Made by a program: the position numbers and the translations under genes. DNA of 8,432 nucleotides from Bacteroidota bacterium (GTDB taxonomy: Bacteria > Bacteroidota > Bacteroidia > Bacteroidales > UBA1556). A model generated the notes under the pieces. That model was not told the DNA's origin. It searched no databases and saw nothing but the letters and a program-made list of their open reading frames with translations. The DNA lies in contig QMPB01000163.1 in assembly GCA_003648395.1 (NCBI GenBank), positions 1-8,432 on the forward strand. Direction: 5' to 3'. Shown here piece after piece: positions 471 through 8,314 of this stretch (positions are counted from its first letter, which is position 1; each line of letters starts with the position of its first letter).

Positions 471-1352
471 TTAATCCCTTAATGCTTCAAAAAGCATTTT
501 AAATTCATCTGCTTTCTGGTCATTACCTTTATTACTATAGATATTAATTAAATTATTAATAGACCGTTGAATAGTAGTGATATTTGAACAAGGCAAGTAA
601 TACTTCTTATTAGGTTCAATATTAATATTGCGCAAATATTTCATTACATCATTTAGAGAATAAATCTCTCCATTATTAAAAGGATTTATATAGAACAGAA
701 CATCATTAGATTTAACTTTCTCAATGGGTTGTGAATATAATTTCTCAACATATACCAACATATAATTTCTTGGCATATTTACTCCATAAATTGGTATGTT
801 AACACTCTGAGCAATAATTGAATAAATTGCACTAAGGTTTAAAGGATTCCCCTTCTTTCTCATTAATACATCACTAATAAACGAGTTTTCAGGATTGTGA
901 TAATCTTTAATATCACCTTTGAAATTATAGACATTAAAGAATAAATGATTTAGAATTCTAACCTTTTCTAGGGCTGTTAGATTATCATTAACTTCAAGCC
1001 ATAAGTCTTGACGAATTTTATTGACTATTTCACTTACCTTTTTCAGCTCTAGTCTTGGGTATTGAAATTTGGCTAGTATGCCTAAGCCTTGATATAAATT
1101 TCTAGAATTATTGTTCTTCCAAGATTCTAATTCTTTAATACTTTTTTGAAGGTTGAGCTTCTGATACAATTCTTTTAATCTGTAACTTAGAAGTGGATTT
1201 ACACTATTGTCCTCTGCATCTAATAAATAGGGCATTAATTCGGCTCCAATTTCTATTATTTGAGAATAAATAAGCTCATAAGTGCTTATATCCTCATCCT
1301 CTAAAAGGTGAATTAATGATTTTATTTTATTATCGTCTAATGCTGATTTCAA
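471..1352 (-). CDS. SirB1-like transglutaminase-fold protein, probably catalytically degenerate
   Basis: This 293-residue protein belongs to the SirB1/transglutaminase-like core 2 family, whose biochemical role is poorly defined. Residues 1-100 are helical and HEAT-like. The recognisable core is YHNPENSF (151-158), RKKGNPLNLSAIY (165-177), IPIYGVNMP (186-194) and FYINPFNNGEIYS (220-232), then a helical tail with YYLPCSN (251-257). Where relatives as I remember them read LPxHF, this protein has MPRNY, with Asn196 at the His position. The Asp expected before PF is Asn223, and no Cys lies in the core; the only Cys is 255. That suggests a non-catalytic fold, although some Bacteroidota relatives may share these changes. 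No ATG precedes Met40, so I accept TTG at 1352-1350. It lies three codons after, and in frame with, the TAG of the upstream phosphorylase gene, so the pair is probably one operon with coupled translation. The stop is TAA. No signal peptide is seen. Confidence 0.85.
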   Translation of the reverse strand: MKSALDDNKIKSLIHLLEDEDISTYELIYSQIIEIGAELMPYLLDAEDNSVNPLLSYRLKELYQKLNLQKSIKELESWKNNNSRNLYQGLGILAKFQYPRLELKKVSEIVNKIRQDLWLEVNDNLTALEKVRILNHLFFNVYNFKGDIKDYHNPENSFISDVLMRKKGNPLNLSAIYSIIAQSVNIPIYGVNMPRNYMLVYVEKLYSQPIEKVKSNDVLFYINPFNNGEIYSLNDVMKYLRNINIEPNKKYYLPCSNITTIQRSINNLINIYSNKGNDQKADEFKMLFEALRD

Positions 1353-6069: not shown

Positions 6070-6348
6070 ATGGCTCATAAAAAAGGTGCAGGTAGTTCAA
6101 GAAACGGTCGCGAATCGGAAAGTAAACGATTAGGTGTAAAAATTTACGGCGGTCAGGCAGTACGCGCAGGTGGAATCATTGTTCGCCAACGCGGAACCAC
6201 ACATCATCCAGCAACTAACGTTGGAATGGGAAAAGATCATACTTTATAAGCTTTAGTTGATGGAGTAGTAGAATTCAGAAAACGTAGAGATAATCGCTCT
6301 TTCGTTTCTGTTGTTGCTCTTCCTGCTGCAGAAGTTGCAGCTAACTAA
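6070..6348 (+). pseudogene. rpmA: 50S ribosomal protein L27 (bL27) gene interrupted by in-frame TAA at codon 60
   Basis: Translated through one stop, this frame is a complete L27. [20 protein letters not shown] starts the protein, then [19 protein letters not shown] and VGMGKDHTL lead to codon 60. That codon (6247-6249) is TAA where family members have Phe or Tyr (DHTLFA in E. coli). After it the same frame resumes with ALVDGVVEFRKRRDNRSFVSV and ends at TAA (6346-6348), 93 codons in all. Both halves are well conserved in one frame, so a single base change (for example TAT or TAC to TAA) explains the break and no frameshift is needed. A 59-residue product would lack the C-terminal part of the fold. 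L27 sits near the peptidyl-transferase centre and its loss is severely harmful where tested. A sequence error is therefore most likely; a recent nonsense mutation with a second copy, or readthrough, are alternatives. TAA ends most genes here, so global reassignment is unlikely. Confidence 0.9.
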
Positions 6349-6368: not shown

Positions 6369-6400
6369 AAAAGCCATTCGCATTGCGAATGGCTTTTTTT
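6369..6400 (+). terminator. rho-independent terminator after rplU-rpmA, possibly bidirectional
   Basis: A perfect 13-bp stem, AAAAGCCATTCGC (6369-6381) with GCGAATGGCTTTT (6385-6397), closes a 3-base loop and runs into an eight-T tract (6393-6400). It follows the last rpmA stop by 20 bases. On the minus strand the stem is followed by a shorter T-rich run, so it may also stop the convergent DUF2807 transcript. Confidence 0.93.
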
Positions 6401-6448: not shown

Positions 6449-7174
6449 TTATTTTCTACTTACACTTCCAGCTCCTGAAGTTTCAATATCTACTATCTTA
6501 GGATTACCCATATAAGTAATATTTGACGCGCCACTTGCTTCGCCTTTAATGTTCTCTTTTACATTTATATAAGCATGAGAAGCGCCACTACAATCAATAT
6601 CTGTAGAGTTAATTTCCAATTCGTAAGCCTTAAGTTTACTTGCACCAGAGATTTCCATATCCGAAGAATTTGCAAATCCTTGTAGAATTACTTTTGATGC
6701 ACCACTAGCATCTAATTCTAAATGATTTGTTTTTATTTTAAATTCTAGTTTTGCGGCTCCACTAGCATCAATTTCCATATTAGTTTCATCAAATCTATCA
6801 TTTGAAATGAGTTTAGCAGCTCCACTAATATCAATATCGTCCATATGTGGTATTGTAATATAAACTTTAAAACTAGACGCATTATTAATAGTTCCCTTAG
6901 TTGAAAGTTCAAGAATACCATCTTTTACCTTAGATCTTATTTGAGGCATTATATTGTCGTCTGTTTCTATTTCAAGACTTTGTACATCACCTTTTGTTAT
7001 TGTAATATTAAAAGCACTGCCGGCATCAATTCCATGAAATACGGATACTGTTCTTGTTTCTTTAATAATATTACCACTTCCTTTTGTTCCAATAAGATTG
7101 AAACTATTAAATGGTAAAAATATGTATACTGCTATTGCAATACCAACTCCTATTAATAGTGATTTTGTTCTCAT
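6449..7174 (-). CDS. head-GIN domain (DUF2807) protein, exported or membrane-anchored
   Basis: This 241-residue protein belongs to the head-GIN/DUF2807 family, which is abundant in Bacteroidota. Its function is unknown despite database labels such as putative autotransporter adhesin. A hydrophobic segment at about 5-22 after Arg2 and Lys4 is a signal anchor or uncleaved signal peptide, so the bulk should be outside the cytoplasm. The family N-terminal motif is visible as GSGNIIKETRTVSVFHGIDAGSAFNITITKGD (32-63, in pieces). The rest is a repetitive beta-helix-like region with Ser-Gly-Ala at 117, 138, 157, 176, 196, 214 and 233. Most are preceded by I/L-x-acidic-Ala/Ile and several are followed by Ala/Ser-Lys. 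The 18-21 residue spacing fits one helix rung per repeat. The ATG is clear and the stop is TAA. The gene lies 54 bases after the sirtuin gene on the same strand with no promoter box between, so it is probably in the same transcript. Confidence 0.9.
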   Translation of the reverse strand: MRTKSLLIGVGIAIAVYIFLPFNSFNLIGTKGSGNIIKETRTVSVFHGIDAGSAFNITITKGDVQSLEIETDDNIMPQIRSKVKDGILELSTKGTINNASSFKVYITIPHMDDIDISGAAKLISNDRFDETNMEIDASGAAKLEFKIKTNHLELDASGASKVILQGFANSSDMEISGASKLKAYELEINSTDIDCSGASHAYINVKENIKGEASGASNITYMGNPKIVDIETSGAGSVSRK

Positions 7175-7228
7175 ATTATGTGATTTTAGTTGTTATAAAA
7201 AACTATGACGTACTAAATGCTTTTTTAG

Positions 7229-7918
7229 TTACATCTCTTTCTCGATTAATTTTTGGACTAATTCTTTTGTAGCGCTGCTTGCCTTCTCTGCCATGCAAAC
7301 TACATTTGGTAAGTTCATTTCTCCAGCATTGGGGTCAATATAATAGACTTTACAATGCGATGGAGCTTCATGACGAAGCCCTGCTGCAGGATAAACCGCA
7401 AGAGAAGTACCAATGATTATTAGAATATCAGCTGTTTGTACAATTTCCACTGCTTGATTTATCATAGGTACTGCTTCTCCAAACCAAACAATATGTGGTC
7501 GTAATTGATTGCCATCACTTGCTAAATCACCCAGTTTAAGTTCCCAGCCATCCAACTCACTTACAAGATACTCATTCAGTTCACTTCTAACCTTTCTTAA
7601 TTCACCATGCAAATGTAATACATTTAAAGAACCTGCTCTTTCATGCAAATCATCAACATTCTGTGTTACAATTTCTACATCAAAATATTTTTCTAATTTC
7701 ACCAAATCATAATGAGCAGAATTGGGTTCTACTTCAAGTAATTGTTTTCTTCTTGTATTGTAAAAGTCAAGAACTAACTGAGGAGTTTTTCTCCAAGCAA
7801 TAGGACTAGCCACTTCTTCAATTCTGTATTTTTCCCATAATCCCCCCATATCTCTAAAAGTAAGGATTCCACTTTCAGCACTCATTCCTGCTCCGCTTAA
7901 TATTACTATTTTTTTCAT
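7229..7918 (-). CDS. cobB: Sir2-family NAD-dependent protein deacylase, class III-like
   Basis: This 229-residue sirtuin is a cytosolic enzyme that removes acyl groups from lysines using NAD. It shows GAGMSAESGILTFRD (9-23, NAD binding), TQNVDDLHERAGS (85-97), the catalytic His104 in HLHGEL (102-107), HIVWFGE (142-148) and GTSLAVYPAAG (170-180). The class III signature Tyr-x-x-Arg is present as Tyr53 and Arg56 in FYNTRR, matching E. coli CobB Tyr92/Arg95 and human SIRT5, so desuccinylase or demalonylase activity as well as deacetylation is expected. The small domain between His104 and FGE has no cysteine, so the usual four-Cys zinc site is absent. I recall this in short Bacteroidota sirtuins, so it need not mean loss of function. 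The ATG at 7918 directly precedes beta-1. The stop is TAA. The DUF2807 gene follows. No exact TAnnTTTG box was found upstream. Confidence 0.95.
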   Translation of the reverse strand: MKKIVILSGAGMSAESGILTFRDMGGLWEKYRIEEVASPIAWRKTPQLVLDFYNTRRKQLLEVEPNSAHYDLVKLEKYFDVEIVTQNVDDLHERAGSLNVLHLHGELRKVRSELNEYLVSELDGWELKLGDLASDGNQLRPHIVWFGEAVPMINQAVEIVQTADILIIIGTSLAVYPAAGLRHEAPSHCKVYYIDPNAGEMNLPNVVCMAEKASSATKELVQKLIEKEM

Positions 7919-8210: not shown

Positions 8211-8314
8211 TTCGTTAAAAAATTTATAATCAAAGCTTTGCTCCCGATAACTATCAGGATAGCGGCTTTGCCTGCCTGAATCGGTAGACTGACGAGAAAT
8301 AAATAATTAACGAA
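8211..8314. repeat. 8-bp inverted repeat enclosing the GC-rich element
   Basis: TTCGTTAA (8211-8218) and TTAACGAA (8307-8314) are exact reverse complements 88 bases apart and bracket the GC-rich palindromic stretch. They could be the base of a long RNA stem or the ends of a small inserted element. In AT-rich sequence an 8-bp match could also be chance. No target-site duplication was identified. Confidence 0.3.
8231..8296. repeat. GC-rich palindromic intergenic element, probable degenerate dispersed repeat
   Basis: This 66-base stretch has 34 G or C by hand count, in strongly AT-rich surroundings. It contains the perfect palindrome CAAAGCTTTG (8231-8240), a near-palindrome CCCGATA/TATCAGG (8243-8249 and 8252-8258, one mismatch) and a decayed inverted pair around CCTGCCT (8271-8277) and AGACTGAC (8286-8293). 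GCTTTG occurs twice (8235 and 8265). From memory it resembles dispersed intergenic repeats of Bacteroidota built from TCCCGATA...TATCGGGA and CCTGCCTG...CAGGCAGG modules. Here both halves look mutated. No coding potential was seen. Confidence 0.5.

Follow-up and report, generated by a model that had tools for sequence, protein, structure and literature searches.

The rpmA locus and its surroundings

The window, by which we mean the whole 8,432-nucleotide stretch of a Bacteroidota bacterium contig (QMPB01000163.1) that was analyzed, carries 11 genes, the first of them cut by the window edge. Among these are rplU and the only rpmA gene visible in the window (Table 1). Translation of 6070-6348 gives 59 L27 residues, a TAA, 32 further residues and a second TAA at 6346-6348, confirming an initial annotation in which codon 60 had been read as an in-frame stop. 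That annotation had also described the frame as L27 on both sides of the TAA, and profile comparison agrees. When an X is put at the stop, the frame matches positions 1-79 of the 79 in PF01016 (Pfam) at 121.9 bits, so what follows the stop is genuine L27 sequence rather than an open frame that arose by chance. The gene resembles bL27/rpmA (PF01016, TIGR00062) in the sequence on either side of the stop, in its N-terminal motif and in its place behind rplU, but differs by the one in-frame TAA, which interrupts the frame.

Table 1. Coordinates of rpmA and adjoining features in the window
Feature	Position	Strand	Evidence
rplU (ribosomal protein L21), intact, stop TAA	5724..6035	+	TIGR00061, 112.1 bits
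rpmA codons 1-59, front part of L27	6070..6246	+	PF01016, 98.1 bits (residues 1-59 alone); TIGR00062, 93.2 bits
In-frame TAA, codon 60 of rpmA	6247..6249	+	Translation; Phe, Tyr, rarely His in relatives examined
rpmA codons 61-92 and normal end TAA	6250..6348	+	PF01016 with X at the stop; no in-frame start
Inverted repeat behind rpmA, likely terminator	6369..6397	+	13 pairs

The MAG 'Bacteroidetes bacterium 4572_112' (L001; CinA 67% identical), the nearest relative with a name that was found, shares with the window the gene order sirB1-udp-usp-cinA-rpmB-fkbp-rplU-rpmA, in keeping with the earlier view that rpmA lies in its normal place behind rplU. Two relatives were compared with the window across the rplU-rpmA DNA, and the nearer was G003 (L048), which is 85.5% identical in 712 aligned bases against 80.1% for L001. 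A strong terminator had been proposed after rpmA; the inverted repeat is there, and we grade it as a likely terminator only. The program lists it on the minus strand, and by eye T's follow on the plus strand too. Downstream of rpmA, neither DUF2807 nor Sir2 was found in six relatives (L001 and L098-L102; about 1.2 to 3.7 kb read), but the relatives with listed frames also differ from one another there, so the absence is neutral on misassembly near rpmA. In the window DUF2807 and Sir2 are paired (6449-7918, minus strand), and the two stand next to each other at 6 of 10 Sir2 loci of relatives (L053-L062). No rplU relatives turned up in a search of viral contigs, and a search of phage records gave weak matches only (6 records, about 67-70% identity). 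At the other end of the window, the SirB1/transglutaminase-like gene (471-1352, minus strand) has no ATG start, its best start being TTG at 1352; its match begins with Met in L001 and with Leu here. By eye, a short G+C-richer stretch at about 8230-8300, perhaps a repeat remnant, stands amid an AT-rich, gene-poor region.

The rest of the window looks clean. None of its other 10 genes has an inner stop, and residues that are odd where all others agree number 2 in Sir2 (0-5 in ten relatives) and 4 in CinA (0-10 in ten relatives), which speaks against generally noisy sequence; an error at codon 60 would therefore be isolated. During this comparison inner stops were flagged for Sir2 (G009, G011) and for CinA (G016); none of them falls within a blast alignment of the protein, and they hence look like normal gene ends. 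A further flagged row was a weak partial Sir2 match in G021. The Sir2 gene (7229-7918, minus strand) reads GILTFRD at a motif that canonically has Pro in place of the Leu. This Leu does not look like a second error, since all five relatives shown have it too.

Codon 60 and the downstream frame in relatives

Codon 60 was compared in several sets of relatives, a check put forward with the initial annotation, and in those examined it is a sense codon (Phe, Tyr, rarely His) and never a stop. Among 29 aligned relatives, chosen from the best 120 of 8000 scored proteins, it encodes Phe in 15, Tyr in 12 and His in 2, so the statement that the family has Phe or Tyr at this position holds for 27 of the 29 and fails for the two with His. 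The closest protein among the matches listed (P0001, 96% identical, encoded on an 814-base contig) is whole at 92 residues with Tyr60, and the codon in L001 is TAT; TAA is one base away from both Tyr codons, TAT and TAC. At the level of DNA, 37 rpmA loci were given to a script, which dropped five that its start motif missed; the remaining 32 have a Phe codon (25) or a Tyr codon (7) and no stop. The script's own tally shows 31, as one locus with HTI for HTL was printed and not tallied.

Searches for the stop elsewhere were likewise negative. L27 was matched in 143 of 149 relatives (no match in 6), and no inner stop appears in any row listed for these 143. When the search was widened to 296 genomes, 279 had L27, again with no inner stop among the matches listed. 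The motif preceding codon 60 followed by TRR (stops or Trp) occurs in 0 of 395 genomes; its sense form, followed by a Phe or Tyr codon, occurs in 29 of the 395, so this search is informative for about 29 genomes. Two protein searches, each covering the best 120 of 8000 scored, returned no L27 cut near residue 59, the shortest protein among the matches listed having 82 residues.

We also compared the constraint on either side of the stop with that in six relatives. Over codons 61-82, the mean changed share of nonsynonymous positions is 0.100 for the window against the relatives (6 pairs) and 0.124 among the relatives themselves (15 pairs); over codons 1-59 the corresponding values are 0.040 and 0.038. 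Relaxed constraint behind the stop was thus not found in these 22 codons, a region short enough that only strong relaxation would show. The sequence behind the stop appears to have been constrained like that of a working L27 until very recently, and a real nonsense mutation would accordingly be very young. The window gene is like a pseudogene in its premature stop, but differs in having no frameshift, no relaxation behind the stop and a normal gene order. A decayed rpmA copy is not supported, as the initial annotation had already argued from context.

Possible decoding of the TAA

We reject a general change of code in which TAA is sense, since TAA is the usual terminator here. It ends 9 of the 11 genes, which would be extended by 5 to 269 codons if it were read as sense, and the TAA at codon 60 is the sole inner stop among all 11; the earlier argument from the ends of the other genes therefore stands. 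We reject a re-start of translation behind the stop as well, since codons 61-92 contain no in-frame ATG, GTG, TTG, CTG, ATT, ATC or ATA. A ribosome hop from the Leu codon preceding the stop to an identical one beyond it would leave residues out of the protein, and nothing supports it.

Local decoding of the TAA, through a suppressor tRNA or programmed readthrough, would yield full-length L27 and would account for a frame that is intact and constrained on both sides. Known readthrough and suppression genes likewise have a conserved frame behind an in-frame stop; here, however, the stop is not kept among relatives (0 of 395 genomes by motif, none in the rows listed for 143 of 149, 0 of 32 fetched genes), it is the least leaky of the stops, and no unusual structure accompanies it. 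One study (PMC5289835) describes UAA as the stop that is least read through, strengthened by a U at +4, with UAAU the strongest signal. The base after this TAA is G and not U, which is a point in favor of decoding. Against it, three 71-base stretches that contain the stop show unremarkable folding (z -1.02 to -1.29), no Rfam family matches in the window at gathering score, and no tRNA gene, hence none with a UUA anticodon, lies within the window. Readthrough had been offered as one option only, and these tests agree in giving no positive evidence for recoding. We regard decoding of the TAA as very improbable, and a TAA that is genuine, fixed and decoded, with the supply of L27 dependent on stop suppression, as more improbable still.

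Origin of the codon-60 stop

The initial annotation had set out three options, a one-base error, a fresh nonsense mutation for which another copy makes up, and readthrough, and as a set they hold up well; we rank the error first and the fresh mutation second. Our preferred reading, which we consider probable, is that one base of codon 60 is wrong in the sequence. The gene would then be an ordinary rpmA in which codon 60 departs by one base from the Tyr codons of the nearest L27 relatives and so reads TAA, the wrong base arising from a base call or from the consensus of mixed reads in assembly, and the organism would make a normal L27 of 92 residues. Several observations argue for this reading: the frame is unbroken and recognizably L27 both before and after the stop, codons 61-82 are as constrained as in relatives, the closest protein among the matches listed is whole with a Tyr at the same position, the relatives examined lack the inner stop, the gene order is that of L001, and a single base separates TAA from two Tyr codons.

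Judged by sequence alone, a single wrong base and a very young nonsense allele would fit almost equally well. If a true and very recent mutation had struck the sampled cell or strain, L27 would be cut to 59 residues and lose its last strands, and the lineage would be sick or partly compensated and probably short-lived. The cost of this bears on how readily it can be accepted. Loss of L27 had been called very costly, and two reports on Escherichia coli lacking L27 uphold the cost but describe the loss as not lethal: growth is reported to be six times slower (PMC4647459), and colony counts of saturated cultures to fall 10,000-fold (PMC12871816, a preprint). A structure model of the read-through protein (mean pLDDT 66.5) places its strands of at least 3 residues beyond the stop, at 65-70 and 78-83, so normal folding of an L27 of 59 residues is improbable, a prediction of modest confidence. 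A real nonsense allele would thus be costly, though not impossible. Viability in E. coli favors such a mutation, as does, somewhat, the clean rest of the window, which weighs to that extent against an error; the unrelaxed sequence behind the stop is equally compatible with a very young mutation and with an error. Against a young mutation stand the probable misfolding of the cut protein, the absence of any cut L27 among the best 120 of 8000 in either protein search and the absence of inner stops in the rows listed for the 143 relatives. We place the error ahead because the change would be costly, is unseen in the relatives examined, and was singled out by a genome scan for oddities, a selection that favors rare errors. 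A recent true mutation is accordingly a possibility that we hold to be unlikely.

The genome might also carry another, intact rpmA that makes up for a true nonsense mutation in this copy, although a fresh mutation would not need one if L27 loss is survivable, as the E. coli reports suggest. One relative, G076, does have two L27 matches on different contigs (C288:16800-17033 and C378:13785-14018), but these could reflect a mixed assembly, and of the 143 relatives with L27 each of the remaining 142 has a single match. The rpmA of the window, moreover, sits in the conserved place behind rplU and is not relaxed. We therefore consider a covering copy quite improbable.

Among the papers listed for premature stops in metagenome genomes, none was on point. 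Where a constrained gene shows an isolated stop and its contig comes without reads, an error or a young mutation is the best assumption until the reads have been checked. It would be a great surprise if the TAA proved both real and decoded, for the cell would then rely on stop-codon suppression to make a core ribosomal protein. Most likely, however, the case is an ordinary one, and the TAA at codon 60 is not a real feature of this rpmA.
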